Assembly: GCA_963680875.1 (NCBI GenBank)
Contig: OY804575.1
Coordinates: 105,827,505-105,891,504 of the forward strand
Length of the DNA stretch: 64,000 nucleotides
DNA from: Bathymodiolus brooksi
Taxonomy: Eukaryota; Mollusca; Bivalvia; Mytilida; Modiolidae
Direction of reading: 5' to 3'
Part shown: positions 11,152-44,695 of the stretch, piece after piece
How the letters are laid out: every line of letters begins with the position of its first letter
Position numbering within the stretch: the stretch's first letter is position 1
Translations under genes and position numbers: made by a program
The notes under the pieces: model-generated
The model's database searches: none
The model's input: the letters and a program-made list of their open reading frames with translations, nothing else
What the model was told of the DNA's origin: nothing

Positions 11152-11710
11152 GTTGATTTTGCCTCTTTCTACGATTTCTCGATAAGTTTATGATAAGATT
11201 ATAGGACAGTTCCGACAGTGTGCTATTTTCTGTTCTTTATGTTATCATTTCTGTATTGTGCATATCTTACACAATACTGACTAACCCTAAAAAAAAATAA
11301 TACGAGAGTTCTGGTTCATGTGTGTGAGTATAGCCACAAACAAACTGTATAACCTCAGATATCAGTATGGTGTCCTTTATGTTTTAATGCTAGATATCTT
11401 TTGTAGTCATGCACAGTTCTTCTAAATTATATTACAGTTATATAGTGTACCTAAGTTTTGCGTGTTGAGTAGCGTCATATGAACAACTCATGTTCGTGTA
11501 CTTTATTGTATTTGACAGAATATCATATCTGGTCAACCAATATAAGATTAAAATTCTGAAAGCACATAACTCCCATTAAGAAGACCAACGCGAGTTAATC
11601 ATGTGTAACACTTTCACAGTGATAAAAAAGACAGCGACGAGTCCTGAAGGTGATAATATACTGACTTCTAAAACAACCGTGGCGGAGTTAATAGACATTG
11701 TTTATTTCAG

Positions 11711-16700: not shown

Positions 16701-18382
16701 GATTACAAAATCATTGAACCTTTTGTTTCTTAAATTAGGATTTATTTTTATATGCAAAGAAATTGTTGTATTTCGCAATGGACATACACGAACGATTCCT
16801 TTATTATTTGGCTAATGACTAACAATAAGTAAATGAGGTAGAGATGGTGAATATTCCCACACTGTATATTTATTATTTCTAGGTGAAAAGTGTACTCGAT
16901 ACGATATACAAATTACAGGTGATTGTTCGGGCTTTGGTCTGTGCGATTTTTATTAAAGGACTGGGAGCTATAAGGGCCAAAATCGGCCCCACCTCAGTTG
17001 TCGATAAAATTTTCTCCAAAATGTATTCACATTATGTGCTTTTCAGAAATAAATACAGTTAGTTAATATGTGTATCTAATTCCTCACAGCGGATTGACAA
17101 AGTCAGGTAATGAAAAGCACTGAACGTCATTTTTTTCAGAATACAGAACGTACGTATCATTGTATTATAATGCATATCTTTAAAAAACAAAAACAAAAGC
17201 AAAGCATAATAAAACTCAATAAACAAAGCATAACTTTGACTTAATATGCAATGTGGATTGATTTCAGGAATAAAAACATGTTCCGAAGCTGTATTATGAA
17301 ATTAAAGTGAACGAATAGTAATGTCGCAACGTCACCCATTTTCGATGGTCTCCTGTTTTCGACGGTTTGTTTCACGTGATAAAGTCTCTCATTATTTTGA
17401 TCGCTTCATTTGTCAGAAGTTATATTATGATGCTGAAATTGCATGAATGATCACCTTTAAATGTAAGAACTACGTACCACATCTATTATTTCACGTTCAA
17501 ATTGTAGTTTTTCGTAATTCATTTTTTCGTCACATTAACAAAGCTTTAATCATTTAAAAATTATATCTCATACAGACCAATTTTGGTTTCATCGTTTGCT
17601 ATGACATTGATAATGTACATATTGAGGTCATATCAATTCAGAAACTTATTAACATTGATCGTCGAAAACTGGTCGAAATGTTGGTATTAATCTTAAAAGA
17701 AGTAATAAATAGGTTTATTTGGACAATAGAACTTTGTCATATTTGAATTTTTTTTAAACACTTTTTTAACCGTACTTTATTCTTAACGACAACCAATGCG
17801 ATGATATATTCCAGTACATTTTTACGGACCACCATCAAAAATCTATAAAAAAAAATGCCAAGGTGCGGGTTGAGAGAAGTCCAATATTTAAAGATCGCTT
17901 TTTTTTTATAAGATGGAAATATTTTGAGAAATGGTGTGAAGCAAAATGTTTAATGTGTAACGATTTTAGCTAGGAATCTGTGAGAATTATTTTTGTTTTT
18001 TTGATAAACTGATAACAAGTTTACAACCATATGATTAATCGTGTAGGTAAAATGTGTGTCGCTGCCATGAGTCTCTGTATGATTGTTTTTATTGTCACTA
18101 GAAAAAGAGGAGATGGTAGATATTATTTTGCTTTGTGACAAACCAACAACAACACTCCTAATAAACTGTTGCTATCAGAATCTGCTGTAAATTGTCTTTT
18201 ACGTGTAATGAGTGTGTCCTTTACATCCCGCGCTAAGGGATGTATTAACTTTGTTCCTTATAGCTGTCTGGTGTCCCTTTCACATAAAGTCGGCGTTTTC
18301 CTAGAGGAAGCCATTTGTTATTTTATTTATGCCAAATTCGCAGTCATGTTAGGATTCTAATAATAATAGGTTATTATACATT
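13772..18382. other. Intergenic, no gene seen
   Basis: AT-rich. At 13872-13925 it holds a fragment of a dispersed repeat (around ACGCGTTTTTGGAATAAC) that also occurs near 7715 and 52740. It also holds the foldback at 15222-15495. No convincing coding or RNA gene. Confidence 0.5.
15222..15495. repeat. Imperfect foldback, arms about 110 bp
   Basis: The segment 15222-15340 (including TTTAACTTGTTCGTGTC) is inverted at 15393-15495 (GACACGAACAAGTTAAAT), with a loop of about 50 bp. The arms differ by small indels. Confidence 0.6.
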
Positions 18383-18388
18383 ATTATT
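18383..18388. other. Polinton target-site duplication, left (ATTATT)
   Basis: ATTATT directly precedes the element end AGTAGGGTGTG and is repeated at 36322-36327 directly after the other end. A 6-bp duplication and AGT termini are the Polinton norm. The flank is itself TTA-rich, so chance adds some uncertainty. Confidence 0.7.
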
Positions 18389-18717
18389 AGTAGGGTGTGT
18401 TCAGTTTTAGTCCCCCTAAAAACCTGTGGCGTTGTGGCGTCCCCATATAAGGCCATAGACACACCCATTTTCCATATAAGGGCATAACCCTACACCCCAG
18501 AACTGACGTGACAAAAATTTGAAATCCATATATGGTCATGACGACGCTCTCGTCGTAGTATGACTCATGGTAAAAGAATTCCCCGCACCTCGACGACCAA
18601 ATATGGTCCCCCTTTCGATGCAATATGATTCATCACATTCCACCGTCTCGAGCGCACGTTGACTCAAAACGGAAGGGTGACATCCATATTAGATTAGGAC
18701 ATGTGTTCACCAATCAA
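18389..18717 (+). repeat. Polinton left TIR
   Basis: It matches the reverse complement of 35996-36321 almost throughout. It starts AGTAGGGTGTGTTCAG. Its inner end fades after CACCAATCAAA. It contains a small hairpin ACGACGCTCTCGTCGT and the transcription-factor sites listed separately. The first gene (ATG 18784) begins about 65 bp inside the TIR end. Confidence 0.93.
18443..18666 (+). promoter_or_regulatory. Immediate-early type enhancer in left TIR (4 CArG, 2 AP-1, 1 CRE-like)
   Basis: Perfect CC(A/T)6GG boxes lie at 18443-18452 (CCATATAAGG), 18472-18481 (CCATATAAGG), 18526-18535 (CCATATATGG) and 18597-18606 (CCAAATATGG). AP-1 TGACTCA lies at 18561-18567 and 18660-18666. A CRE-like TGACGTGA is at 18504-18511. 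CArG boxes bind SRF, TGACTCA binds Fos/Jun, and CRE binds CREB/ATF. The combination is that of growth- and stress-induced immediate-early promoters. Function is inferred. Confidence 0.7.
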
Positions 18718-18783
18718 AAACGTCCAACAGGCGTATACAAGACCTAGTTTCGTTACCCTGGGTTTATTCACAAGTCGATCGAG

Positions 18784-19407
18784 ATGGAGAAAACACGTTG
18801 TAGCATCGAGTTAGGAAACAACAGGTTCGTTCAAGCTTCTGAATGGAAAGTCGAAATCAGAATTGACGTCAGAGAATGGGAGATCAAGGACGGAAAACAG
18901 ATACCCACGAAAAAGGGGATCAGTCTCCCCCTACACAGATGGAAGATGCTCGTAGACAGTCTCGAGTTTTTGGACCAGGCCCTGGACGAAAAGAGAGAAT
19001 ACGCTACACACCTCGGAAGAAACGTGTACTCTATCGTGAAAGCAAACGGCATCTGCGTGGACCTTAGACAGCACTGGCTACCACACAATCAAACAGAAGT
19101 CGTGCCTACCAAGAAGGGAATAACGTTAAGACGGGGAGAATACGCCAAATTTAAAAATGTGGCCAGTGTGATCTGTGACTTTGTACCAAAACTGAATTCG
19201 GTAGTACCGTGTCCTTACAGATCGGACCACATGAACCAGTTGGGTTTCTTATCCTGTCCAGAATGCAACCCAGATCATTTTGCGGAATGGTTAATAGATT
19301 GTGACATTTGTTATAATGCCGGACTAGTGAATGACATTGTGTATACTGTTATTTTCACATGTATATGTGGATACATTTTATTTTCTTGTGTATTAAAGTA
19401 TGTGTAA
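18784..19407 (+). CDS. PC4-like transcription coactivator, tandem domains
   Basis: 207 residues, intact. Residues about 5-66 match the PC4/Sub1 (p15) ssDNA-binding fold: VEIRIDVREWEIKDGKQIPT, then KKGISLPLHRW and a helix ending FLDQAL. Residues about 75-140 are a second, diverged copy (CVDLRQHW, PTKKGITLRRGEY). A CPYR...CPECNPDHF cysteine patch follows. The last 25 residues are hydrophobic, which is odd for a nuclear protein and may reflect a lost earlier stop or a membrane tail. PC4 binds melted promoter DNA and helps TBP/TFIIA-driven transcription. It can also act as an ssDNA-binding replication protein. It is the first gene beside the left TIR enhancer. The next gene is 1.3 kb away. Confidence 0.78.
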   Translation: MEKTRCSIELGNNRFVQASEWKVEIRIDVREWEIKDGKQIPTKKGISLPLHRWKMLVDSLEFLDQALDEKREYATHLGRNVYSIVKANGICVDLRQHWLPHNQTEVVPTKKGITLRRGEYAKFKNVASVICDFVPKLNSVVPCPYRSDHMNQLGFLSCPECNPDHFAEWLIDCDICYNAGLVNDIVYTVIFTCICGYILFSCVLKYV

Positions 19408-20723
19408 ATTTACCGGTTTTCTTCGTCTTGTAAACCATGGAAGTTCAAGAAGTACTTTTCTGATCGCTAACTTTGTGGTCTTATTTCAAAAGTATTCGTG
19501 CGAAGAAAAGTACTTTTCAAGATTTCATACGTTTTGATTCACACAAAACTATTCAAATGTAAACCATGACCTCGGTTAACCCAGACACAACAATACACTG
19601 ACCGCGACCTATCAATTTCACAACACGCCCAGTGACTTACAATGAAAACATTCCAGTGTGTATCAATCAACGATACACATCACTCAACAAGACATTATGT
19701 TATATAATTCGATCATTGACTTCAATAATTCCCGAGGAAATAATAATATTCCAATATTAACTATCATTAAAGATTTATCTGAATAATAATCAAAGATGTC
19801 TTAAATATAAACAGACGCTATGATACACAAAAAAATCAAGATCTGTATATAGTAATCCAAGTAACTGATCACACGCCTTATACATTATACAATTATCTGA
19901 TTAGGCCATATTTTTCCTGTAAATTTGACCAGACGCTTTATTTATGTGATCGAGACCGACCGATACAATACCAATCCTGCATATCTTCAGAATATATAAA
20001 ATTTCATTCGTTCGTTAATGAATAAAAAACGTATATTTTTTCCACACAAAATAAATACATATTTTTGTTTTCAAATAACAGGACGAGTGTTTTTTCTATT
20101 CACAAAACTAAACTTAATAGTATGTGCACTGCAGTCCACTGACACTGACTGACCATAATATAAAGTCACCCCCATTGGTGTATGTTAATGCAATTTGTGT
20201 ATGTTGTATCATGATTATGCAATGACTCACCCCTTCCTAGATGTGCTTAGCATTGTCCATATAAAGTTAACTCTCATCGGCATACGATCGATAATGACTC
20301 ATCACGTACCCCGCATGAAAGATAACTTTATATGTTCAACAGATTGCGCATGTTGTATCATGCTTATGCAATGACTCACAAATACCGCATTGCGTCAAAA
20401 TCACATAATCACCTCGACAGTCCTATCCCCGTATGAATCATACAACGTGTACAGGCTTGTCAAATGAGTCACCCAGTTATTAACCGCACCCATCGCTACC
20501 TGAAAGCTATATTTGGACCCACGGGTTTCTCGCATGACGCAACCCATATCGCAACTAGTGTCTTGACCTTATACGGAGAAAAGACTTCCGCTGGTCACGG
20601 CCAATGAAAAGCACTGACTTCAATTTTGAGATCCGTATATAGTAATGTTTTGTAAAATAGCTAACCATTGGCCAGGAGGGTTTATGGAAACCCGTGTTCG
20701 AGGCATTTCGAGTCATTTTCACG
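19408..20723. other. Non-coding leader region between PC4-like and PolB genes
   Basis: No coding region is convincing on either strand. The right half is rich in AP-1 sites and a duplicated block (next feature). The rest is AT-rich. Confidence 0.5.
20199..20471 (+). promoter_or_regulatory. AP-1 rich control region with duplicated block
   Basis: TGACTCA or its complement occurs at 20223-20229, 20295-20301, 20372-20378 and 20465-20471. The block ATGTTGTATCATGATTATGC plus AATGACTCAC (about 20201-20230) recurs at 20350-20379 with one change in the ATCATG(A/C)TTATGC core. It lies 250-500 bp upstream of the zinc-finger/PolB ATG, so it probably controls that gene. Confidence 0.55.
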
Positions 20724-21048
20724 ATGGAGTTCCAATGCAACGTTTGTGCCAATATCTTCTCCAGAAACGCTGATTTGAAAAGACACAAAGAATCCGTTCA
20801 TGGCGAAGGAGCCTTTTCGTGTGACAAATGTTTCAAAACGTTCAACAGAAAGGACGCGTACGTAAGACACGAACGTACTTGTTCCATAATATGTAAATAC
20901 TGTGAAACCGAATTTGACAGTGGAAGCGATTTATCCATCCATGTACAATCACAACATACGGACAAAAAGTATATATGTGTTCCAAATGTGGAAAGAAATA
21001 TTCCAAAAACAGGAGTTAAGGAAACACCAACAAAAATGTACTAACACG
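20724..21048 (+). pseudogene. PolB gene exon 1: C2H2 zinc fingers (frameshifted)
   Basis: ATG at 20724 starts MEFQCNVC. Three zinc fingers follow: CNVC...H...H, CDKCFKTF...H...C and CKYCETEF...H...H. A fourth begins as YIC in the first frame. Its middle and its HQQKC end are read in the two other frames, so there are two small indels near 20970-21010. The frame reaching HQQKCTNT ends exactly at a splice donor acg|gtaagt (21049). Phase 0 matches the acceptor at 25688. The fingers therefore look like the N-terminus of the polymerase, as seen in other Polinton PolBs, and may bind DNA ends or the promoter. Confidence 0.7.
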
Positions 21049-21377
21049 GTAAGTGATTTCACACTACGGACGATTATTAATTATATAAAGAGTGTTGTAA
21101 AATGCATCCGTCAATACGATTTTCACTATATATATTTTACGGATTGGTTTACATGATTATAAAACTATTTTAGCTGTGACATATTTATCAAAATTGATCA
21201 GATTATCACACATTATCAATAGACATTTAGTGTTTTTATACCCCCTCCCCCCCTCAGAATTATTTTCAAAATAATTAATCATATATAGCGGAAAAAATGA
21301 ATTGACGGATTCCTTTTACACGACTCTGCATTAATACCTAGAAGAATGAATATTCCAATATACTAAATCCATAATAA

Positions 21378-24221: not shown

Positions 24222-24489
24222 CAATAATACACAGAGATATATATAAATATATATATTTTTAATTTTTAGGCCTAAGGTAAGCAACCTCACATACTTCCGA
24301 AAAATACACATTTACCGTCGACAGGGAAGTTCGTTTCTTTGTTCGGAGTCTTGTGGCACGTAAAGATCAGAATGTTGTATATAATTTAATTAGCGGGTAC
24401 TTATTTAACTTGTAGTTTCTTATTATAGGTACATCAATATATTTAAATATTTATTTAAATAAAGGTAATAACAAAATTACCGAACTCCG

Positions 24490-25062: not shown

Positions 25063-25688
25063 AACAATCCTGTTTTACTATAATTTATTTACGATTGGTT
25101 CCTTAATCTATACACCGAGATATCGTGTCATTCGCTCGCAGGAATTTACACATTATGCTACACACAAAACTGATAAAATCTGATGATAAGCAATTTACAT
25201 CAAGATGATTCATAGCAAATCCTCTCACGAAAAGAATTATAACTCGGATGTATAAAATGTATGTCGAAGATGATAAGAGTTAGCTCCCATTTAGCGTTAT
25301 CTTATTGCATTTTATTTTTCACCCGTTAAAATGATTAAATGTATAGTCTTACATTATCAATAGCCTTCGTTTATTTATTTCTGGATTTAAACAAAAGCGT
25401 TCATTTATCACGTGAACAAACATAAGTGAAATGAATTTAATTATCCCCAGTGTTTTGAAGGAAGTATACTGTAAAGTGCGGCACCGAACGGGAATGTGAA
25501 ACGGTATACCGTAAAATACGTGCCGATCTCATGGAATGGATTTATAGCTATAATGATACATTTTATCATGTTAATTACTGGGTTATAATGTAAAATACGA
25601 CCTGGACTGGGAATGGTATGCTTTAAAAGACGGCATGGGATTTAAATTTTTCATTCCCACGTATAATTATTTTCGTCTTATATTGCAG

Positions 25689-28600
25689 GAACCTTCCAAT
25701 CAATCTCCGCAACCGGGACCCAGTTCATTACCAGAACCATCCATCACCCAGGACGAAAACAAGTACATATGTCATCGATGTATCCAGCGTTTCCCCGACC
25801 GTGGTCAACTCTACCTCCACGGGATGCAGGAGCACTACCAATCCGGCGGTGGAGCCTTACAAGCCAGACCCTGGGAAGACGACCAGACCAGTCGAAGGGG
25901 ACGATCGACTCAAGAACGTGTACGAGGCCAACGCACCCATCATACTAGAGAATCACCAGGAAAGTTCAGTATCCTCCAGCTATAACGTCCCGCTCACCAA
26001 CGACTTCACCGTACCTGAAATGATGGAGCACGCCGAGCGCATTTACGACCGTCAGGGACACGCTTTCCGCCTCAACTTAGAGTTTGGACTCATCCTCAGA
26101 CATACGGAAACCGGCGAGTACAGATATTTCCGTGCATTTGCCAACGAAGCTCTTTTCGAGCGTCCTGTCTACATTTCCAGACGTAAAGACTTAAACAGAC
26201 TGTGTCTCCGTCTTCAACGCTTCAACGTCTCCGACTACATTTTACGTCACAGACCCGACACCAAGTGGAAACCGTACCTGATCACCAACGTCCGGTTCGT
26301 CTTGTACCACTTAAACTATCCTTTGGGAAACGTCGTTCAACTACCAGAATACCTCACGTCGTCCAAATCGATCGTCGCTCTTGACAAAAAATTCCACAAT
26401 CAAAAGCACTATAAAGATCACCTCTGCGCCTTCCGGTGTCTCGCCGTGCACTGAGGACATCTGGGAGACCGATGGGAAACTGACACCAAAGCCTTGTTCG
26501 ATCGATGGGTCCAATTTGCCAAAGACAAAGACTTAGACGTTTACGTGGACACCGCTACCGTCCCGGGACTTCCGTTGCATCAGATGGCGTACTTCGAGAG
26601 ATGTTTTTCCATCAACGTCAACGTCTACCACTTACGCGACGACGGCGTGGCTCTGACCGTCTATAATTCCCGATGTCATCACGACGACACGACGCACGTC
26701 AACCAGTTCGATCATCATCTCAGTTACATCTCCAATTTACCGGCCTACATCCAGAAATACCAGTACGGCACCTGCGACAGACACTTCAAGCATGTGAATA
26801 GCATGAAACCTCACCAACTGAAATGTACCGGTCAAACCGTCTACAATTTCAAGGGCGGATTCCACAGCAACCCGAAAACGATCTTCGACAAGTTGGAAGA
26901 ACAGGGCATCCACGTCTAAGACCCTGTCTATCCTTGGTTCGTCGTCTACGATTTCGAAGTCATGCTCGCCCCCATTAAAGAATCGAATTCGGCCAAACTG
27001 ACCTGGACTCAACGACACGAACCCATCTCAGTCTCTGTCTGTTGCAACGTCGAGGGATTCTCGGAGCCACACTGCATCGTCGAACCCGACGTCGAAACGC
27101 TCGTGCGTAAAATGGTGGAATACATGACCAGAATCGCCCTAAGGTCGTACGAACTGGCTCAACAAAAATTTTCCGATGCTTTCGCCCAACTCGACGCTGA
27201 CATCAACAATCCAATGCGGGCCCTCCTGGAAGACGACGACGACGATGACTATAAACTCAACGCCTTCCTCGATGACGATGAACTCCAAGAGGAAAACGAG
27301 AAGGAGAAGAACGTCTACAAAAAACTCAAAGAAGAACTAGACGCCTACTGTCGCCAAACCATCGTTCTTGGATTTAACTCGGCGAAATACGACATGAACC
27401 TCGTCAAGGCACATCTCGCCAAACAACTCGACATGCACGGTCCGGGCGAAACATTTACCGTCAAACGTAACAACAGCTATGCTTGCTTGGCCAACGAGAC
27501 CTTCAAGATGTTAGATGTCACTTCCTATATGAGTCCTGGGCTTAGTTACGACAAGTTCCTTAAAGCTTTCGACGTCGTCGAAAATAAAGGATTCATTCCG
27601 TACGAATGGTTCGACGGCGTCGACAAATTAAATCATCCAACTCTACCATCCCACGAAGACTTCTACAGTTCGTTGAAAGAATGTAACATCTTGGCGGAAG
27701 AATACCAGTTCTGTCAACACGTCTGGTCCGACTACGGGATGTCGACCTCCCAAGATTTTCGGTTCTTCCAGGCCCTCGAAAATTTACAGAAGATTTATTT
27801 CGACCGTGGTATCGACGTTTTCAAGACCTCCATCTCCGTACCCGGACTAGCACGCGGATACTCTTCGACACAGGGCGCCAGGCAGGAGCTTCCTTCGCCC
27901 TCTTCGACGAAGCCAACAGCGACCTCTACGATACCATCAAGCGGAATTTAACTGGCGGACCCTCCATCATTTTCAATCGACACCACGAAGTGGGCCAGAC
28001 CTACATCAGAAACTATTTCACCAGACCGTGTCAAAATATCCTTGGCTTCGACGCCAACGTGTTATATCTTTGGTCCATCGATCAGGAGATGCCGACAGGT
28101 ACGTTTGTTCGACGTAGGCTGACAGACAACTTTAAACCTCAAAAACGCGATAAGTACACCCTCATGTACGTCTCCACCACTCACAAGGTCTCCACATTCG
28201 ACACAAATTAAACACCGGCAAAAAAAAGAAGATCGGTCCGTACCCCGTTGACGGCTACGACGCCAATACCAACACCGTCTACCAATTCCACGGGTGCTAC
28301 TGGCACGGTCACAAGTGTTGGATGACCAAGAATGTCAAGGATCAGAAATGGCGTGAAATCCGTCAGTCCAAGTACGACAAGACCGTGAAGACCACCAGTT
28401 TGATCCAGGTTCAAAGATACAAAGTCGTCGAGAAGTGGGAATGTCATTTTCGAAATGAAATCAGAAGAAATGACAAGTTAAAAACCTTCTACGACTCCAG
28501 GAAACCACCTACACCGCAACGATCCGTCACCGAAAACGAAATTTTAGAGGGTGTAGCTAGCGGTCGACTCTTCAGTATGGTGGAATGCGACATCCGGGTT

Positions 28601-29991
28601 CCCGCCAAATGGCCGTCTTACTTTCAACATCCAACCATGACGCCGTACGAATACTTCGAAGAGAGGTCACCTTTGTTCTGTATCACCGACGTACCGTTCG
28701 ACTTCATCGGCGAACACATGCAAGATCACGTCCAACGTTTCGAATTATCGGAGAAACCTCGACGACTGCTGGTAGGAGGCATGCGGGGCCGAGAGATGTT
28801 GATCGCAACTCCACTTCTGAAATGGTGTCTAGAACACGGCATGGTGGTGACCAAGATCTATCAAGTGGTTGAATTTACGCCGCACCGATGTTTCCAAGAG
28901 TTCGTGAAAGAGGTATCGGACGGTCGTCGACTAGGTGACGCGCACCCCAATAAAGCCATCATAGGGACACTAAAAAAGTGGAAGGCAATAGTGCATACGG
29001 CGGCACCATCATGGACCAAGAAAAGTTCCAGTCCGTCACCTACGTCCAGGGCGAGGGCAGGGTCATGCTAGAAGCCAACAAACCGCAATTTAGAAAAATG
29101 ACGACTCTGTTGGATCAAGACGAATACTTCGAAGTTGAAAAAGCCAAAGAGAAATTAGACATCAATCTACCAATTCAGATAGGCTACAGTACGCGAAATT
29201 ACGCATGCTCCAATTTTATTACGACTACCTGGACGTGTACGTCGACAGAGCCGATTTTGCGTACTGTGAGATGGATACAGACTCGGCATACATGGCCCTG
29301 TCGGACCCACGTTCGCTTCCGTCGTCAAACATGAAATGAAAGACTCATACCAACGAGCACTGACCGGATGTTGCAGGGACGACGTCGATCCACAATGGCT
29401 TCCGCGCACCTGCTGTACAAAGCATGCAAATATGATAAGAGAACCCCCGGATTATTTAAACTCGAATACGAGGGTGACGTCATGATTGGACTCTGTTCGA
29501 AAACTTATATAATTCAAAAGATCAAGACCGTTCCCACTTCCAACACAAGGATGGCAGCCTTCCGACTCTTCAGACGTGCCAAGAAACTCCCACGACTCGT
29601 CCATCGTCCACGATAGGTGCGTGAAGTGAAATTTAGCTCCAAGGGAATCACCAAGAGACGGGTCAAGGCCCCCATGACAACATTTCGACACGTTCTCAAC
29701 ACCCAACGTGTCGGACCGGGTACGTTAAAAGGTTTCCGAGCCCGCAACAACGGTATAGCCACATACCAACAGAAAAGAAACGGGTTCGCGTACTTCTACT
29801 GCAAGAGGAGAGTCTTGGACGACGGTGTTTCCACCGTACCCCTAGATCTAGAGCTGTGTCCGATCAAAAAAGAACCGATGGACGAAGAGGAACAACCCAT
29901 GGAAGTCGTCGACACTGAAACATCGATGGAGGTGGATACTCCTGTGGTGTTAAACGACAACGATAAATACATTATTCATCTTGGAAACTAA
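25689..29991 (+). pseudogene. Protein-primed family-B DNA polymerase (PolB), exon 2, broken
   Basis: It replicates the element. Order seen: a C2H2 finger (YICHRCIQRF) after the splice site; the N-terminal Polinton region (MMEHAERIYDRQ, RRKDLNRLCLRL); CAFRCLAVH; a second finger with its first Cys replaced (KYQYGTC); ExoI YDFEVML near 26950; ExoII GFNSAKYDMNL near 27380; FIPYEWFDG; motif A DANVLYLW near 28050; motif B GNSAYGG near 28990; motif C MDTDSAYM near 29275; KFSSKGITKR near 29630; end TAA 29989-29991. Breaks: frame change about 25850-25900, TGA 26452-26454, TAA 26917-26919, frame changes near 27860, 28215 (in an A8 run), 28975 (in an A6 run), 29185, 29300 and 29420, and TAG 29614-29616. 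Catalytic residues are all still present. Confidence 0.93.
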
Positions 29992-30074
29992 CTTTGAAAA
30001 CGAAAAGATACAAGGTTCTCAACAACGCTTGTCTGAAGTTTACGAGTGGTCTTGGTGTTCAGGAGTCGGCTCAT
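29988..30074 (-). CDS. 28-residue ORF behind a TATAAGAG element
   Basis: It starts MSRLLNTKTTRKLQTS and has a net positive charge. The ATG (30074) lies about 26 bp downstream of the motif at 30100-30110, the same spacing as for known genes. The stop TAG overlaps the PolB stop TAA head to head (CTAA at 29988-29991). I recognise no family. Small basic peptides occur in adenovirus-like virions, but that is only a guess. It could also be a 3' leftover. Confidence 0.3.
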   Translation of the reverse strand: MSRLLNTKTTRKLQTSVVENLVSFRFQS

Positions 30075-30099
30075 TTTTTCTCGTCAGTCTCTAGTTCTT

Positions 30100-30110
30100 C
30101 CTCTTATAAA
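30100..30110 (-). promoter_or_regulatory. TATAAGAG-type promoter element (h)
   Basis: Minus strand TTTATAAGAGG. The TAA at 30104-30106 is also the ATPase stop codon in the conserved C-terminal frame. The 28-residue ORF follows about 26 bp on. Confidence 0.5.
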
Positions 30111-30724
30111 TGTTTGGGAACGTACACTATCGGGTCTACTCCCGGGAACACGCGTGTTCTCAGTATGTAGGTGTCTTCCGAGTGAGGTGACATGTCCAAG
30201 ACCAGGTATCCGAACGGAAGCGGACGTCAATATCTTGGAGCGTCCGGGAAAGAGTTGTCTCCCCAGCGTGGCGACCTTAGACACGTCCCTTACATTTTTC
30301 ATCATAACGAGATATGTCGTGTTTAATGCGATGGTTCTCGATTTCGTTCCTCTGGGGAAAATGTTCTGTGTGATGAAAACGACGCTCAGTCTGCGGTGGT
30401 GACCTTCCTGGGTATATAACAATTCTGTGCGACTCGGTGCATCAAATCGTCCAACGCGATCAGTCGGTGACGTCTGTCTGCCGTGAATTGGTCGATGACT
30501 TCCGGTGAGGGTGGTCCTTGGTGAAGCGTGATGCTTGGGATGGTCTTTGCCATTTCTTCGAACAGCGGTTGGTGAATGCCTAAACAGTATATGATCTCGT
30601 TCTGAGGGGCTTCGACGTACATGTCCTTGACGGTCTTCAATAATTGGAAGACGAACCGGGTCTTTCCACTTCCCGTTTGTCCGGTCAGGCACGTACTGCT
30701 GCAAGGTAAGATGGGAAACACCAT
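30104..30724 (-). pseudogene. FtsK/HerA-type DNA-packaging ATPase, frameshifted
   Basis: Start ATG 30724. Walker A GQTGSGKT at residues 15-22. Walker B HRLIALDDLM at about residue 85-94. The sensor region SVVFITQNIFPRG, then KNVRDVSKVATLGRQLFPGR, is read in a second frame after a change near 30405. The conserved end (GYLVLDM ... RVFPGVDPIVYVP) is in a third frame after a change near 30240. About 207 codons, a usual length for Polinton ATPases. It would pump the genome into the capsid. A promoter element lies about 30 bp upstream. Confidence 0.9.
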
Positions 30725-30752
30725 GATTCGAATCGGCTCGCTCCTTCTTCTT

Positions 30753-30762
30753 CTCTTATGGC
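30753..30762 (-). promoter_or_regulatory. TATAAGAG-type promoter element (g)
   Basis: Minus strand CCATAAGAGA, about 30 bp upstream of the ATPase ATG at 30724 and inside the last codons of the membrane-protein gene. Confidence 0.55.
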
Positions 30763-30986
30763 TTGACCACTTTCAACGTGGGACTGGGTAGGTCGTATCC
30801 GATGGCACTGCTGAGTAAGGTGATCCACAGTTCGTTTTTCCCGTTCTGTAGCGATAGGTTTACGATCGACGTGACGATGATGACGTAGACGACTATCATC
30901 TGGCAGAAATACACGATTTCCGATTTCGGTAGTTTGCTTCCCATCACGTTGCATCGTTTGCTGTGCGTGCTACTCTCTCGATCCAT
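30756..30986 (-). CDS. Small single-pass membrane protein
   Basis: 76 residues, intact. The N-terminus is polar and basic (MGSKLPKSE at residues 15-23). A hydrophobic helix covers residues 24-44 (IVYFCQMIVVYVIIVTSIVN). The rest has LQNGKNELWITLLSSAIGYD and an LPSP motif. A small membrane protein of this kind next to protease and ATPase is a regular Polinton gene; its role (virion membrane or entry factor) is unknown to me. Start at 30986 is supported by a promoter element 30 bp upstream. M15 is an alternative start. Confidence 0.75.
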   Translation of the reverse strand: MDRESSTHSKRCNVMGSKLPKSEIVYFCQMIVVYVIIVTSIVNLSLQNGKNELWITLLSSAIGYDLPSPTLKVVKP

Positions 30987-30996
30987 GATGTCCTCC

Positions 30997-31434
30997 TCAT
31001 TGGATTATCTTCTTTCCTCTTATGAATTTCAGTACTTTTCTATCGTTTTCCCTGCTAAAGTTTTTCAAGACGTCGCGGAAAGAACAGTGTGGATATCGCT
31101 CTCGAACGAAATGAATGCAGTAGGCTCCGCAGGTATCGCTGTCTTCCGGTTGAATTTGGTCCGGCCAGTAAAGATATCCCGGTCCGTTGTTGGCTAGGAC
31201 GTATTCGAAGCGTGAGTTGTAGGTTTTCGCTCGCTCACCCATTGAGTCGAAAAATTCCGGAGGTCCGAGTCGAGGGAAATGGAACACGGTCCAGTGCGAT
31301 CCAGGCATCGAACACGGATCGGTGTTGACGACGTACGTTCTGGGTCTCTTCCCGATCGAGATGGGCAATTCGTCCGCACATATCACTCTGACGGGGAAGT
31401 CTTTCAATCGTCTTTCCAGTTCCAAATTGTTCAT
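30997..31434 (-). CDS. Adenain-like cysteine protease (capsid maturation)
   Basis: 145 residues, intact. Ulp1/adenain fold signature: GSHW with His47, EFFDSMG with Asp63, IQPEDSDTCGAYC with Gln95 and Cys102. All catalytic residues are present. It is shorter than adenovirus protease (about 200) but usual for Polintons. The ATG (31432-31434) overlaps the stop of the capsid gene (TGA 31431-31433) in an ATGA, and no TATAAGAG element lies directly upstream, so its expression may depend on the capsid transcript. It is predicted to trim capsid precursors. Confidence 0.92.
   Translation of the reverse strand: MNNLELERRLKDFPVRVICADELPISIGKRPRTYVVNTDPCSMPGSHWTVFHFPRLGPPEFFDSMGERAKTYNSRFEYVLANNGPGYLYWPDQIQPEDSDTCGAYCIHFVRERYPHCSFRDVLKNFSRENDRKVLKFIRGKKIIQ
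31015..31024 (-). promoter_or_regulatory. TATAAGAG-type promoter element (f)
   Basis: Minus strand CATAAGAGGA, inside the last codons of the protease gene and 30 bp upstream of the membrane-protein ATG at 30986. Confidence 0.55.
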
Positions 31435-32662
31435 TGTAGCAAGACACTGCGGGATTGATCCACGTGTGCGATCCGAGGAAACTTGCCGTACATGAGAACT
31501 GTAACGCTTTCCAGTAGGGGCGTACCGAATCTAATTTCCAAGCGACAATCTCCTCTGCGTTTGGCATTGAAGTCGTCGTCGTCGTCCACGTTCAGGGTGT
31601 AAATTGCGTATCCTCCACCGTAGACTGAGTAAGAAACGTCGACGTCGTTTCTAAAGGCCGACAACGTCCTGTAGGCTTACACGTAATTTTTTTCGGTGAA
31701 GTTGGGCTATAACGGTTTGGCGGGTACGATTGCCCGTCGACGTACAGGGACAGAAAATTACAATCGAACGGTTGGAAATTGAACGGCGACTTCTTATAAT
31801 TTCCACTGAAGGCTTCCCTGCTGACGATTCCAACGATCAGTTGCGAGGGGACGTTCTCGCTGTGGCTGTACTCTCCTTTAGACAGGGAAGCGATCTTGAA
31901 GGACGTACTGACGTACGGATACATGGCCGTCCCGTTGGCCGATAGTTTACTGTGGGCCATCAACACTCCGGCGTTGGGTTTCTGAAGGCACAGCTTGAAA
32001 CTGGCGTCCAAGCTCTGTACTGCGTATGCGGCTCCTTCATCGCCGGACATCAGGCGAAATGCGTTTTTGCTGGGCCATAGCTTCAAGGTCAGACTGACTC
32101 CGTTGACGATCAAACGTTTCTGTCTAAAGACGTCCAGGTGAAGGGGTCCTTCCAATTCCAAGAGGTGACCTTCGTCCGTGTACATGGAACGTGTGCACAG
32201 ACCTGCTCCATTTCTCACGTCGTCGTGGTATCCAGGCGAGTCCTTCTCGAAGGGTTGCGAGTTCCGTAACACTCTGTCGTTGGCACTCGTCTCCAGTAGC
32301 GTGTCGATGTAGGCTTTGTACGGGTAATTGGTTCCGGTCTGCGTAACGGAAGTCTGTTTGAGACTGCACTCCACTTGCAAAAAGACGGCTTGTAAGGAAA
32401 GATTGACCAATCCGACGTTGGCGTCTTTGGCGACGGGCTGTCCCAGGGCGTTGGTGAGTCGAAGTTTGATTTTCAGAGTACTTCTCCTCAGATCCATGTA
32501 TCCGACAGACTGCGGTGGAATCAGGAACTCCAACGGGGATTCCCGGCTTATTTGGTTGGTGGGTCGGCATTCGATCCATTGCCTGGTGTGGACATCCGTA
32601 TTGGTGAGCGGAGGCGTGAATACCGACAGTTCGTCTTCGTGGTTCTCTTCCAAGTGGTTCAT
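31431..32662 (-). pseudogene. Capsid protein, probably major (double jelly-roll), frameshifted
   Basis: About 410 codons. Conserved Polinton capsid blocks in order: LEFLIPPQSVGYMDL, VGLVNLSLQAVFLQVECSL, NYPYKAYIDTLLETSANDR, LELEGPLHLDVFRQKRLI, VNGVSLTLKLWPSKNAFRLM, LIVGIVSREAFSGN, SPFNFQPFDCNFLSLYVDG, then in another frame YGGGYAIYTLNVDDD and RLEIRFGTPL. The frame changes between about 31670 and 31720, with an in-frame stop there. I take this as the major capsid protein of the F54H12.2-like family because of its length and two-part pattern, but cannot exclude the minor one. Start 32662 overlaps the stop of the upstream gene (ATGA). Confidence 0.85.
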
Positions 32663-32964
32663 GGTTCGCCCAGTTGGTTGAAAGAACCTCTGGGTTTCTT
32701 TCCTCTTATAACTTTCTGTCGAGCCAATTCCGACTTGGCCATCTCGAGAATCTGCGTCACCAGTTCGACTTTGGGAGTGTCTGGTTCAACTTTGTGAGTG
32801 TGGGGTCGCCAGCGGGCACCTCTTCCCACGAGGTATCTGCCTCGGTGATCGGCTAGAGCTCTTCCCTCCGACACGTCGGTAAAGTGCTGCTCCCATTTCT
32901 TGTAGTCAGGTACGTAGGGTACCAATCGCTTGTTCTTGTGATCGTAGATTTCTATAGACCCCAT
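32659..32964 (-). CDS. Conserved small Polinton protein, 101 residues
   Basis: Intact. It starts MGSIEIYDHKNKRLVPYVP, with KKWEQHFTDVSEG and the block DHRGRYLVGRGAR, then a helical, charged C-terminus (VTQILEMAKSELARQK). The 'KW.QHF...D..GRY.VG.G' pattern is familiar from Polinton proteins lying next to capsid genes. The function is not known to me; a virion or core protein is likely. The larger frame extends upstream to 33309, but that part belongs to the penton-like gene. Confidence 0.65.
   Translation of the reverse strand: MGSIEIYDHKNKRLVPYVPDYKKWEQHFTDVSEGRALADHRGRYLVGRGARWRPHTHKVEPDTPKVELVTQILEMAKSELARQKVIRGKKPRGSFNQLGEP
32702..32712 (-). promoter_or_regulatory. TATAAGAG-type promoter element (e)
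   Basis: Minus strand GTTATAAGAGG, about 40 bp upstream of the capsid ATG at 32662, inside the end of the 101-residue gene. Confidence 0.6.
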
Positions 32965-33361
32965 CTTCGTTTTCTCAAATGAAGCGTGCAGTACAGTCGA
33001 TCGATTTTGAATCGACAGGGTTGAAGTCGATCGTCTCTTATAAATATTCGCACTCGATTCAACTCCATCTGACGCATCCTCGTGTAATAGGGTCTTCCGA
33101 ATTCTAGGTCTAACTGCGTCGGGTCGACGGAGCGTAAAACCGGCAGGAAAGTATTTTTCTTGGACGAGATCGGAGCACAAGTAGAGACGTTCGGTTCGTC
33201 GCTCCGTCTGCGGATGCAAGGTCAGTTCCGTCAAGGCGCATTCCCAGCTTCCTTCCAACAGATACGTCTTGGGTAAGTCCACCACGAAGTCTCCGGCGTG
33301 ATTGTTCACGTGGGTCGATTAGCGAATCCCCGCAGTACAGATAAAAGTAAAATTCCTCCAT
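32952..33361 (-). pseudogene. Penton-like minor capsid protein, frameshifted
   Basis: About 137 codons from ATG 33361. N-terminus MEEFYFYLYCGDSL. After a frame change near 33305 comes GDFVVDLPKTYLLEGSWECA followed by LTELTLHP. After a second change near 33145 comes PVLRSVD, then FGRPYYTRM and NRVRIFIRDD, ending at TAG 32952-32954. The 'F..L.S..S... N..G.F.V.LP....L.G.WE.AL.E' pattern is that of Polinton single jelly-roll minor capsid proteins. The 101-residue gene starts inside its last codons. Confidence 0.75.
33034..33045 (-). promoter_or_regulatory. TATAAGAG-type promoter element (d)
   Basis: Minus strand TATTTATAAGAG, about 70 bp upstream of the 101-residue gene (ATG 32964), inside the penton-like coding frame. 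The spacing is longer than at the other sites. Confidence 0.5.
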
Positions 33362-33388
33362 GATCACTTTGTCTGTAGGGTGCGCGGT

Positions 33389-33399
33389 TCCTCTTATTA
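33389..33399 (-). promoter_or_regulatory. TATAAGAG-type promoter element (c)
   Basis: Minus strand TAATAAGAGGA, 29 bp upstream of the penton-like ATG at 33361. The first TAA (33397-33399) is the stop codon of the preceding gene. Confidence 0.6.
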
Positions 33400-33740
33400 T
33401 TGTTCGCCGGACCTAATCGATAAGACGACGGCTAGATTCAGGTAGTGCGGTCTAAGCAGACGAGGCACGAGGTTGTGATACGTCACCAGTGTGTTTCTCT
33501 TACGTCGTAACGATATTCTGGGATCGATAACCTGTCTCAAGATCAACGACGTTCCCTAAGATGTGTGGCGTCTTGTGGGAGGACGCGAATGGATCCTCAA
33601 ACGATGTAGCCCGCGACTTCCTCCCAAGCTTCCATCTGTTCTCTCGTCATGTAGCGCACGAGCAGTTTTCTGATCGTCTTGTTGGCTTGTCCTAGTTCCC
33701 TGAGAAAATGAATGCGTCGGTACACGAGGGATTGATCCAT
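33397..33740 (-). pseudogene. Small basic helical protein, frameshifted; function unknown
   Basis: ATG 33740 gives MDQSLVYRRIHFLRELG, KTIRKLLVRYMTREQMEAWE and VAGYIV then TGA. Near 33540-33600 the sense moves to another frame: RISLRRKRNTLVTYHNLVPR, then LLRPHYLNLAVVLSI, ending at TAA 33397-33399. About 114 codons, rich in Arg, Leu and Lys. Polintons often carry a short basic protein of this look near the capsid genes; a DNA-binding core protein is a guess. Confidence 0.5.
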
Positions 33741-33753
33741 GATTAGAAAGACG

Positions 33754-34830
33754 TTATCCCACCGATCTCTTATAGTCTTTTAGCGAGGCCGTGGTTATCC
33801 AGCTGTTGAATTTCGAGGGTCATCCCATCCATTTGACTAACGCGTCATTGCGTCGTCGGCGAATGACTTTTTCGATACTGTACACCGTCTGCTCGGTTAC
33901 CTTCACTCTGTTAAATTCCGGTTGATAAAATGTACCCCGTACGGCGTCACCGCACGTATCCTTTAACGTGTAATAGGGCATGCCTTCCTTCATGCCTCGA
34001 TCGTCCACCACGAAATATTCCATCGTCCATCGTTCGTCGTATTCCCGATCGAACGGTTGTCTCACGTGCGAGATGCAAACGGTGTATCCTTTCCGGAACA
34101 CGTAACGTCATGTCGGTGCCTTGGCGTACTGTCTGGTGTTGTACTGGAGTTTCCACAAACGGGCTTCGTCTTTCTTGGTCACCGCTCGGGGAGGCATCTT
34201 GATGGAACAATGATAACGTCCGTTGTAGCTCTGGGTGATCTCGTCGAGAACATCGATCCAGCGATGAGTTTGATGACGGGATAGGTAACGAAGAGTTTGG
34301 ACTTCAGCGTCTTGATGCATCTTTCGGCGTAGGAACTCTTCTGTTCGTTCTGTGTCTAGAAGTGGTCCACTCTCTCGGCCTTCAATAGTCGTTGCACCTC
34401 TCTGTTCCGGAATTCGACGCCCTTGTCGGTTCTCAGCTTGGTGGGTTTTTGACCTCGACGGAATAAAGTCTGCAGCGCGGACGACATTTCCTTGCCTCGA
34501 GTGGAGCGTAAGGGAAACGTGTGTGCGAAGCGGGAAAAGACGTCGATGGCCACTACAAAGTAAGCGTACCCGTCGTTGTCTTGGGCAAACGATTTCATCA
34601 CGGCGGTAGTCGATGAACGGGGCGATCACTTTGCGTCTCCTGAATTTTCTGTTGATCTGTCTGTGCAGACCGAACGTTTCTTGTGTTTCCAACCATTTTC
34701 TGATCTTAGCTTTTACCAGCACGTATTTTCCTTCTTGACGGACGGCCTTGTACAGTTTGTCCACGCCACCAAACGAACCCGGATGTTGCGGGTTGTAATA
34801 TATCTTTTCCAAGTAGTCTTGATAAGTCAT
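33754..34830 (-). pseudogene. Retroviral-type (rve) integrase with chromodomain-like end, broken
   Basis: ATG 34830. The N-terminal zinc-binding-like part YYNPQHPGSFGGVDKLYKAV is followed after a frame change near 34605 by the DDE core: FVVAIDVFSRFAHTF (first Asp), LRTDKGVEFRNREVQ (second Asp), then TAG near 34352 and SSYAERCIKTLKSK (Glu). A frame change near 34300 leads to THRWIDVLDEITQSYN, and another near 34105 to the SH3-like end and IEKVIRRRRNDALVKWMG, a chromodomain-like motif cut by TGA 33820-33822. The stop is TAA 33754-33756. It inserts the linear genome with a 6-bp duplication. The TGA sits where related proteins have an aromatic residue. Confidence 0.92.
33766..33776 (-). promoter_or_regulatory. 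TATAAGAG-type promoter element (b)
   Basis: Minus strand CTATAAGAGAT, 26-36 bp upstream of ATG 33740, inside the last codons of integrase. Confidence 0.55.
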
Positions 34831-34834
34831 CGTC

Positions 34835-35015
34835 TTATTGAATCCTCTTCTTTTCGTCCAGAAATGTCTCGATCATCTCGTATTTCCATTGAGGTTCCGC
34901 CAAGTATTAGGTATTCTCTTGCTTTTTCGAGATTGGTCTTACTCAAGGCCACTTACACGTCGCTGGGTTTCGCCGCAAACAGTAAAAGAACGTACGTCTT
35001 ATCCACCGACCACGT
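34835..35015 (-). pseudogene. Decayed small ORF, about 60 codons, unknown
   Basis: The frame WSVDKTYVLLLFAAKPSDV has a TAA, then VALSKTNLEKAREYLILGG. A frame change leads to QWKYEMIETFLDEKKRIQ and TAA at 34835-34837. The codon at 35013-35015 is ACG where an ATG is expected, 5-16 bp after a promoter element. It directly precedes integrase. It looks like a helical protein; I do not recognise the family. Confidence 0.4.
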
Positions 35016-35019
35016 ATCC

Positions 35020-35030
35020 CCTCTTATAAG
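35020..35030 (-). promoter_or_regulatory. TATAAGAG-type promoter element (a)
   Basis: Minus strand CTTATAAGAGG. The TAA at 35024-35026 is the stop of the TBP-like gene. The small decayed ORF follows at once. Confidence 0.6.
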
Positions 35031-35529
35031 TATAGAGCGAGCTCTAATAGTACGTTACAAATATCGTCCAGGTCACTCAACCGCTTGATTCCCGTGATAA
35101 TCGTCTTTCCGGACAGGTGACAGATGAAATGCATGCCGTGACGTCGGAACATGACGGCAGGAAACATTTCGGGTTCGTAACTAAAGTCTTTTGGCAATCG
35201 AGTCGGGTCGTTTCTGTCGGTCAATTGGTGAGCTGCGACGCCGTGACCACTCGGACGTTGGTGAGTCGTACGGGATAATTCATCTTTTGCAATTGTCTTG
35301 CATATCGGCGAAGACGACGTCGAACGTCTTGTAGGGAAAGGCATTTCCCGTTACAGTTGATTTTTCCGTTGGAGAACAGCAAGCAATTTCCTCCTATCTT
35401 TCGATGTTGCCAAACGACGGCGGAAAACACTTTGGGGTCGTAGCGGGCATTCGTCACTCGATACGTTAGCACGCGTAGATCGAGGCTGCATCCCAAGTCG
35501 GCTTGTACCCCCACGTTGGTCAGTTGCAT
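35024..35529 (-). pseudogene. TATA-binding protein (TBP) homologue, one frameshift
   Basis: About 168 codons, the size of a TBP core. First repeat: TNVGVQADLGCSLDLRVLTY, TNARYDPKVFSAVVW, CLLFSNGKINCNGK, then RRLRRYARQLQKMNYPV. After a frame change between about 35224 and 35265, second repeat: PTRLPKDFSYEPEMFPAVMF, CHLSGKTIITGIK. The saddle signature (NxGC.LDL; R..NA.Y.PK.F.AV; F.SGK...G; SYEPE.FP) is clear. Of four DNA-intercalating Phe positions three are kept; the one before LSGK in repeat 2 is His. TBP nucleates transcription by binding TATA boxes. It sits behind the CARD gene near the right TIR. Confidence 0.85.
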
Positions 35530-35838
35530 TAAAACGATCAGCCAAATCCTCGAACTCTTTCAAACGAAGGGCTTCGACTAAAGCGGAAAAAGCCGGGGTC
35601 CTCTTCTCACTAGGATCATCAACAGTTGTCGAACTTTATTCTTCACCGTGTTTTGGTATAAAATGTCTTCTGCTTGTTCGTCGTTGAGAATGCGTTTCTC
35701 TACCAGATGTCTTACCACGGGATCTACGGGAGTTTCGGTCACCAGACGGACGAAATTCTTGAAGAGCTTCTTTTTATCGCGTGTGTCCATGGGGAAGGTT
35801 CTCGAGAAAATAACGATAGTATCGAAGACATTCGACAT
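35530..35838 (-). pseudogene. CARD (death-fold) protein, one frameshift
   Basis: The better start is ATG 35790 (good context, MDTRDKKKLFKNF). An earlier in-frame ATG is at 35838. Helices match a caspase-recruitment domain: KLFKNFVRLVTETPVDPVV, RHLVEKRILNDEQAEDILYQ, TVKNKVRQLLMILVRRGP. The diagnostic 'RRGP.AF..L..AL' end is reached only after a 1-nt frame change near 35590, continuing as LKEFEDLADRF. CARDs bind other CARDs in caspase, IAP, MAVS or inflammasome signalling. A lone viral CARD would most simply act as a decoy; this is inference. It is the first gene inside the right TIR, with a TATATATG box about 50 bp upstream. There is no gap to the TBP-like frame. Confidence 0.75.
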
Positions 35839-35839
35839 A

Positions 35840-35995
35840 TATATGGTGTCTAGGTTTGATTGGTCTATTTCAATTCTTTTTTTTTCATTGGTGGGTACGT
35901 ATGCTTCGATCGGTGTGAAGGTGAGTCATCGAGTCGAAATTATGTATTTTTTTCATATTTTTATTTTTTACGAGGTCAGGTCCGGGGTGGGGATA
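35840..35995 (-). promoter_or_regulatory. Leader between right TIR and CARD gene
   Basis: No coding. Minus-strand CCATATATATG near 35840-35850 is a TATA-like box for the CARD/TBP unit. Confidence 0.4.
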
Positions 35996-36321
35996 TGATT
36001 GGTAAACACACATCAATATGGATGACACCCTTCCGTTTTGAGTCATCGTGCGCTCGAGACGGTGGAATGTGATGAATCATATTGCATCGAAAGGGGGACC
36101 ATATTTGGTTGTCGAGGTGCGGGGAATTCTTTTACCATGAGTCATACTACGACGAGAGCGTCGTCATGACCATATATGGATTTCATATTTTGTTGTGACG
36201 TCAGTTCCAGCGTGTAGGTTTATACCCTTATATGGGAAATGGGTGTGTCTATGGCCTTATATGGGGACGTCACAACGCCACAGGTTTTTAGGGGGACTAA
36301 AACTGAACACACTCTACTACT
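35996..36321 (-). repeat. Polinton right TIR
   Basis: Inverse of the left TIR. The outer end ..CTCTACTACT has three extra bases compared with the left end. Confidence 0.93.
36039..36264 (-). promoter_or_regulatory. Immediate-early type enhancer in right TIR (4 CArG, 2 AP-1, 1 CRE)
   Basis: CArG at 36099-36108 (CCATATTTGG), 36170-36179 (CCATATATGG), 36226-36235 and 36255-36264 (both CCTTATATGG). AP-1 TGAGTCA at 36039-36045 and 36138-36144. A perfect CRE TGACGTCA at 36196-36203, where the left copy has TGACGTGA. All four CArG boxes are intact although the TIRs have drifted. Confidence 0.7.
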
Positions 36322-36327
36322 ATTATT
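36322..36327. other. Polinton target-site duplication, right (ATTATT)
   Basis: Copy of 18383-18388 directly after the right end. Confidence 0.7.
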
Positions 36328-36661
36328 ATACAGCTATAATTTTAATCCAATCAAAAACACCCATTTAAGACATGTGACCGTACATTATTTTTCCTGTATT
36401 GTACAACCGGAAGCCGTATTTTTTCCGTATTGGACATCCAAGACGGTTTTTTGTCGTATTGTACATTATGTAAGGGAAGTAACTCGTTGGTTTTTGTCGT
36501 CTGCTGTAAATTATTTTTAATTGTAATCTACAATCAAATTAACTTGTTCGATATTTAACAGTTTGAGGGAAAAGTAAATTGTTTAGAATAATTGTTGATC
36601 AGTTATTTTACTGTTTTTAATTCATTTTTAGAGTTTACGAGATCTGTATTGATACAGAACA

Positions 36662-44000: not shown

Positions 44001-44451
44001 TAACCCCTACCCTTTTCGGAAACCCCTGGTATAAAATTTATATATACACTTTGGTGATCAGTAGATTGTATGGTTACAGGTTTAATTTTACATGTTTCTA
44101 CAAGAGAATAAAAATCTGTCCCAATAAATATCATATCTATACGACTGGCCTCTGTTTTATCCTTCCGTCGCCAAGTAAATTGTTGTTTATCTTGATTAAA
44201 TTTTCTCCAAATATCTGTTAAATTATTTGTTTTATAAACGTTTTTAAACTTGCTACTGGTTGTATAAATGTACCAATTTTACATTTACTTTTCCTATCAA
44301 TTGGCATAAGAGTTTCGTTAAAATCACCCCCAACTATTGGTATTCCAGTCCCATGTTCCTTTAAGAATCTACTTACATTTTTAAAAAACACATTTCTCAA
44401 TGTTCTGCATTTAGGTGCATATATACTTACCATTGAAAACATTTTCGACAT
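41004..44451 (-). pseudogene. LINE ORF2 remnant: endonuclease, reverse transcriptase, zf-RVT
   Basis: In order: APE-type endonuclease (MVSIYAPKCRTLRN, PIVGGDFNETL; later RIDMIFIG), a linker rich in Lys/Glu, reverse transcriptase (NKSPGLDGLTVEFYRAFW, IIFVDFTKAFDSLEWNFM, GIRQGCPLSALLF, ISQLADDTTLF with LADD in place of YADD), thumb region, and a C-terminal zinc knuckle CNFCGQDEDYLHYFVSC. Several frameshifts and stops (near 44218, 43880, 43640, 43150, 42880, 42180, 41865) break it. Confidence 0.85.
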
Positions 44452-44659
44452 TTGTTAACCATAACGACCGTTCAGGCTTGCGAGACCCAAACACATCTTC
44501 ATCTTTAAGAAAGATCGGTTTCACATTTTCACTTTCTCTATAATGAGATTGGGTATAGCCTTGTTTTGGGAATTGATTATTGTGTTCATTTGTATCATCT
44601 GTATCTTGATTTTTATCTTGACGGTTGTTCCCGGACACAACTTGGGAGTACGACGCCAT
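44411..44659 (-). pseudogene. LINE ORF1 start fused to ORF2 remnant
   Basis: 82 codons, polar N-terminus typical of an ORF1 leader (MASYSQVVSGNNRQDKNQD), then a tail without ORF1 RRM or zinc knuckles. It marks the 5' side of the internal deletion. Confidence 0.5.
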
Positions 44660-44679
44660 TTTTTCATTGTTTACAAGTT

Positions 44680-44695
44680 GTACAGGATATATGTT
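44680..44695. other. LINE target-site duplication, right
   Basis: GTACAGGATATATGTT. Confidence 0.9.

Follow-up and report, generated by a model that had tools for sequence, protein, structure and literature searches.

A recurrent, minimal TATA-binding protein gene with a predicted altered base-reading surface in Polinton-type elements of Bathymodiolus brooksi

A Polinton-type element lying at about 18.4-36.3 kb of the 64,000-nt stretch of Bathymodiolus brooksi DNA analysed here (the window) carries a TATA-binding protein (TBP) gene, and this gene is a recurrent, selected component of the element, found in two gene-order types. The element family is predicted to encode a minimal TBP of about 168-175 residues, whose residue pattern indicates an altered, polar base-reading surface on a predicted TBP fold, with the intercalating phenylalanines and the TFIIB contacts mostly kept. 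Our main reading, to which we assign a probability of roughly 0.6, is that this altered-specificity TBP serves the element's own late promoters.

In the window, the TBP gene occupies positions 35024-35529 of the minus strand, with an ATG at 35529 and a stop just under 35024. Repeat 1 is read in the frame 35221..35559 (minus strand), which matched Pfam PF00352 with an E value of 1.9e-13 (50.5 bits, positions 3-85 of the 85 in the profile), and repeat 2 in the frame 35024..35350 (minus strand; E 4.2e-5, 23.7 bits, positions 28-79 of 85). As the curated cut-off of this family is 22.9 bits, both pieces lie above it, repeat 2 narrowly. When compared with solved TBP chains in the PDB, the N segment gave a best E of 4.8e-19 and the C segment one of 4.7e-8; judged by sequence, the matches of both segments are well beyond chance. 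The initial annotation, which had proposed a Polinton with its own TBP, was right in both the coordinates and the reading, including the single frameshift between the repeats (two frames, one frame change). A profile built from 35 relatives found 35 different PDB sequences with E values no higher than 0.001, the best reaching 4.9e-32 over profile positions 3-168. The modelling that had been suggested as a check gave a confident result for an intact relative: P0001, whose sequence is that of the 168-codon frame at L010, was modelled by AlphaFold2 with a mean pLDDT of 93.4 and a TBP-like order of strands and helices. Model confidence, together with a profile match that spans the full length of TBP chains, predicts the saddle fold for the element TBP.

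The element is about 18 kb long (~17.9-18.0) and is bounded by ~0.3-kb terminal inverted repeats (TIRs), at 18377..18690 on the left and 36015..36330 on the right, with 92% identity over 337 columns. Its ends are readable as AG...CT at 18389 and 36321, perhaps the true ends of the left and right TIR, respectively, and ATTATT is found outside both, although the flanks are AT-rich, which makes this target duplication weak, and another 6-base candidate exists there. On the minus strand, inward from the right TIR, lie the CARD, TBP, integrase, penton-like, putative capsid and protease genes, a small ORF and the ATPase, and on the plus strand, inward from the left TIR, the PC4, C2H2 zinc-finger and polymerase genes. 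The CARD-domain gene (35354..35925, minus strand) lies immediately upstream of TBP, overlaps the TBP start and is broken into two frames, 35578-35925 and 35351-35635; the first piece matched PF00619 (E 3.5e-10), the second had no Pfam match, and both match the same place in other copies. Its product might possibly be an apoptosis or immune regulator of the element. The integrase gene (33820..34872, minus strand), downstream of TBP, is broken; a Pfam search with the window's own pieces gave no match, while its relatives in L024 and L023 matched rve with E values of 2.8e-5 and 3.1e-6, both under the Pfam cut-off. The penton-like ORF (32662..33412, minus strand, broken frames) was recognised from its position and its conservation in other copies, with no database match, and the putative major capsid ORF (31592..32785, minus strand, ATG at 32662) is an open frame conserved in L020, L024, L027, L028 and L063 for which database searches gave no match. 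The protease ORF (30997..31530, minus strand) had no Pfam match of its own, and its relative at L020:6034-6450 matched the adenovirus endoprotease PF00770 above the cut-off (E 2e-5). The packaging-type ATPase piece (30386..30772, minus strand) has a P-loop and weak Pox_A32 matches under the cut-off.

On the plus strand, a PC4-type protein (18748..19407, start codon at 18784) adjoins the left TIR and matched PF02229 in two stretches (E 3.2e-23); it is followed by the C2H2 zinc-finger ORF (20661..21044; PF00096, E 1.4e-12) and by the DNA polymerase block (25575..29991), whose broken frames are conserved in L023, L025 and L028 and gave no Pfam polymerase match. The names penton, major capsid and DNA polymerase are putative, given by resemblance (by motif in the case of the polymerase) without a library match. 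TIRs, size and a short target duplication were all found in the window, and an adenovirus-type protease through the relative in L020, features that support assignment to the Polintons. The window copy is a dead relic.

A search of the 2.0-Gb assembly for the TBP family returned 19 matches, 15 of which were element-type by sequence (the window and 14 others), the remaining 4 being read as exons of the host TBP (L001, L007) and of a TRF2-like gene (L015, L019). Among the 15 element-type loci, the integrase lies directly downstream of TBP in 10, and CARD and a TIR match lie upstream in 8 each; at L002 and L013 TBP alone matched, and the near-copies L004 and L005 have their integrase fragments on the opposite side. 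Both TBP repeats are in one frame at two loci, L003 and L010. At L012 the polymerase block, ATPase, TBP, integrase, penton-like, capsid, protease and PC4 genes follow one another on one strand, and L003 shows the same gene order from TBP through PC4, with no ATPase or polymerase matched in the 8 kb on the other side of its TBP. As to the intact relative at the same place beside the TIR, which the annotation had named as supporting evidence, one-frame copies exist and a TIR match lies upstream at 8 of the 15 loci; the TBP of L012 sits mid-array, directly upstream of the integrase, between it and the ATPase, and not beside a TIR. Searching with the L010 protein gave 42 matches in 34 places (8 second matches of one place were dropped), many of them short. 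A cluster of short, broken TBP matches on C14, at about 77.3-78.5 Mb and including L004 and L005, looks like an element fragment spread by local duplication.

Between element lineages dN/dS was about 0.15, with dN 0.166 and dS 1.136 for L010 against the window (155 codons), 0.170 and 1.075 for L010 against L011 (167 codons) and 0.196 and 0.871 for L002 against L003 (88 codons); the comparisons with the broken window copy include a small share of inflation from out-of-frame stretches, and synonymous sites were saturated between L010 and L003. Within lineages the ratio ranged from 0.38 to 1.15, as for decaying insertions, and these values were not counted as evidence because out-of-frame stretches inflate them. 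The between-lineage comparisons indicate that selection maintained a working TBP for as long as the elements were active.

Residues were counted in 178 full-length rows out of 191 proteins, which were the best-scoring of two profile lists and are therefore biased in favour of the profile; residue positions and their roles were taken in part from Table 1 of PMC12529657. Most of the 178 rows keep F116 (177), F190 (178), F99 (160), N69 (169) and T215 (167), as well as the TFIIB-contact residues E186 (152) and E188 (170), and L189 (151). The canonical TATA-reading set was not found, V122, T124, N159 and V161 being replaced by polar residues in most rows: at V122, 122 rows have Asn and 22 have Gln; at T124, 146 have Asn and 22 have Gln; Thr takes the place of N159 in 174, and Ser that of V161 in 173. 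The window copy also has Asn at both V122 and T124. At F207, in repeat 2, Phe was found in 99 rows and His in 67, and the His may weaken DNA bending. Repeat 1 of TBP reads the 3' half of the TATA box, and Asn in this repeat would accept the G of TATAAGAG.

A candidate late core promoter was found on the minus strand of the same element, where ATAAGAG occurs at 30101, 30753, 31017, 32703, 33035, 33391, 33767 and 35021 (30101..35027). The coding strand carries all 8 sites of the structural-gene block (29999-35100) and the opposite strand none, whereas 500 shuffles of the block gave a mean of 0.326 and a maximum of 3. The 18.0-kb element holds 11 copies of the motif, compared to 6 in the remaining 46.0 kb of the window, and the corresponding figures for ATAAGAGG are 5 and 0. 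Six of the eight sites are followed by a frame of 25 codons or more whose ATG lies at +33 to +47, counted from the first base of the site, and five have an ORF start (at least 45 codons) 20-50 nt downstream, which was reached in 3 of 20000 random placements; some sites fall inside coding sequence. In unbiased 7-mer counts TTATAAG, TATAAGA, ATAAGAG and TAAGAGG lead in the window block and in L028 and rank 1st, 3rd, 4th and 8th in L027; ATAAGAG is 7th in L024 (4 versus 0.34) and missing from the top eight of L020, L023 and three polymerase blocks. L063, from the window's lineage, has 5 and 0 copies on the two strands, and L064 has 1 and 0. The TBP-integrase junction carries ATAAGAG in 9 of the 15 loci (L003, L006, L008, L009, L011, L012, L016, L017, L018) and lacks it in L002, L004, L005, L010, L013 and L014, some of which are truncated, L010 lacking it despite its open TBP frame. 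ATAAGAG is enriched in the window's lineage; the strong signal is confined to copies of this lineage, which are not independent of each other. A search for narrow TATA strings in the 160 nt before ten gene starts, which would miss TATAAG, yielded just two TATATA (zinc-finger and CARD genes).

The TIRs carry a different set of sites. Four CArG boxes are present in the left one (18443, 18472, 18526, 18597) together with two AP-1 sites, and four in the right one (36099, 36170, 36226, 36255) with two AP-1 sites and one CRE. For the right TIR, the four CArG boxes (shuffle mean 0.024) and the two AP-1 sites were each reached in 0 of 2000 shuffles, and the CRE in 12 of 2000. Among the 24 TIR copies that reach 250 bases, the window's two included, 6 hold 2 CArG boxes, 12 hold 3 and 6 hold 4, and an AP-1 site is present in 23. 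The motif columns were conserved at 0.920 versus 0.848, a value reached by 8 of 287 circular shifts, while a second CRE-like site was less conserved (0.65) than the remaining TIR. Taken together, the set of CArG, AP-1 and CRE sites resembles an immediate-early, c-fos-like enhancer. As to PC4, a match on the opposite strand within 30 kb was found for 5 of the 34 TBP places in a comparison that covered 31 of the 150 listed PC4 places, and L003 and L012 have weaker PC4 matches. The genome has numerous PC4-like matches (570 candidates, of which 150 were scored), many of them away from TBP, which makes the link between TBP and PC4 a loose one. The element PC4 also matched 107 public proteins, with Mytilus names among them. 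A divergent PC4 place on C8 (L061, L062) was considered as a TBP-less control and rejected, PC4 alone having matched there.

If the TBP serves late promoters, host factors would start the early genes from the TIRs, and the element TBP would then recruit host TFIIB and RNA polymerase II to structural-gene promoters with (T)ATAAGAG as their core, roughly 20-50 nt ahead of the start codon; PC4 may help as a coactivator or may instead act as a single-strand binding protein in replication. That the element would choose its own promoters, as the annotation had supposed, becomes more likely given the residue changes and the ATAAGAG sites. A fuller scheme for these virus-like transposons of bivalves, with immediate-early-like TIRs driven by host signals (CArG, AP-1, CRE), an early TBP, perhaps with PC4, and a private late promoter (T)ATAAGAG read through the herpesvirus-convergent Asn, is offered tentatively, with the odds somewhat against it as a whole. 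The weakness of the motif in lineages other than the window's counts somewhat against both the late-promoter reading and this two-stage one.

The herpesvirus comparison runs as follows. According to PMC12529657, KSHV ORF24 has N485 and N487 at the positions of V122 and T124, 100% conserved in beta/gamma-herpesviruses, and is without the TFIIB-contact acids. The element TBP is like the beta/gamma-herpesvirus TBP mimics (KSHV ORF24, EBV BcRF1) in being virus-encoded, with a TBP fold (predicted for the element), the phenylalanines kept and Asn at V122 and T124 (PMC12529657, PMC4893493), and Asn at these two base-reading positions suggests an apparent convergence. Those mimics work with host RNA polymerase II at late promoters with a non-canonical TATA (TATT), a use that is proposed for the element TBP as well. 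Compared to ORF24, the element TBP has no additional domains around its minimal core, retains E188 and E186, lost in ORF24, and has Thr/Ser instead of Asn/Asn at N159/V161; the element motif is ATAAGAG rather than TATT, and the element has an integrase and TIRs.

The same retention of TFIIB contacts alongside changed base-reading residues would also suit a working TBP aimed at the host, tying up TFIIB or occupying host promoters and so weakening host transcription; a decoy, however, has no need of a conserved, specific polar reading surface, and ATAAGAG before the structural genes would be left unexplained, so that we regard this as unlikely. It is also rather improbable that the TBP works as proposed while ATAAGAG serves as an initiator or in translation, or simply reflects common descent and Ile-Arg codons. 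The 33-47 nt to the ATG in six of the eight sites suits an initiator, and by our reading two sites are within conserved coding stretches, but the coding-strand enrichment and the placement before ORF starts speak against it, as does the persistence of the 7-mer at some L024 places although between-lineage synonymous sites are saturated. A role in integration or replication, with TBP tethering the integrase to promoters or marking the TIRs, draws on the position of the integrase directly downstream of TBP at 10 of the 15 loci and under either gene order, an adjacency that perhaps reflects operon order only, and its chances appear slim.

In a tree of 39 rows, from which archaeal, giant-virus and mirusvirus TBPs were left out, the five cellular rows (Arabidopsis, yeast, part of human, host TBP exons and host TRF2-like exons, the last short and long-branched) fell on one side of a 100/99 branch. 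Capture of host TBP exons in the window copy alone, the refutation foreseen in the annotation and favoured by the broken state of this copy, has next to no probability given the 14 other element-type places, the host TBP exon being just 38% identical over 63 residues (other elements, about 52-92%) and grouping with human, yeast and Arabidopsis across that branch, and the host gene having at least two exons whereas the element frame is not split by exons. Element TBP and host TBP and TRF2 share the profile and, by prediction, the fold, and differ in base-reading residues, introns (none in the element) and branch.

A two-sequence TBP profile matched 152 public proteins (E <= 0.001), and the 120 listed include names from Mytilus edulis, M. 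galloprovincialis, Crassostrea virginica and Pinctada imbricata. With a profile of seven divergent members the number rose to 3602, Mercenaria mercenaria being among the 120 listed, and the remainder may include cellular TBPs. Most relatives have 160-190 residues. Two listed relatives carry the names of clam-symbiont MAGs and are probably host DNA. Scans of IMG/VR viral contigs and prokaryote genomes found no contig encoding the relatives, so the context of those beyond the host genome is read from source names. A public Crassostrea virginica 'TATA-box-binding protein 2-like', labelled as a host gene, is probably an element gene.

The element shares TIRs, adenovirus-type protease and a size of ~18 kb, and putatively an integrase, with Polintons/Mavericks and adintoviruses. 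To our knowledge, TBP, PC4 and CARD are not part of their usual gene set, and we know of no mechanism for the control of Polinton genes in animal cells. No report of TBP or PC4 in animal Polintons was found in the open-access literature searched, most subscription papers being outside its scope. An altered-surface TBP beside a candidate matching promoter would give a direct handle on Polinton gene control and would be a naturally occurring TBP of altered specificity. In bivalve genomes, with their many copies, TBP residues could be traced alongside promoter letters from one lineage to the next. African swine fever virus and poxviruses bring their own RNA polymerase, unlike the element, in which no RNA polymerase subunit was found. 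B263R of African swine fever virus is a predicted TBP (PMC5825884), poxvirus VITF-3 is a TBP-like factor for viral promoters (PMC12917281) and a TBP gene is reported in 59% of mirusvirus genomes (PMC10132985); mirusviruses are large DNA viruses of eukaryotes that belong to a different virus group. In the passages searched, PMC11071296 and PMC11071308 contain no mention of TATA.

Some minor features of the window were also recorded. Within the polymerase block, a stretch at 28154-29068 resembles a Vsr-like endonuclease (PDB best E 3.2e-5; PHROG endonuclease E 2.1e-6). Elsewhere in the element, two 119-base inverted arms, 92% complementary and 2.6 kb apart (21371-24228), perhaps mark a nested insertion. 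An array of 45-base repeats at 10150-11169 comprises 17 registered copies and has long open minus-strand frames, and broken minus-strand frames at 41004-44740 resemble, as judged by eye, a reverse-transcriptase retroelement.
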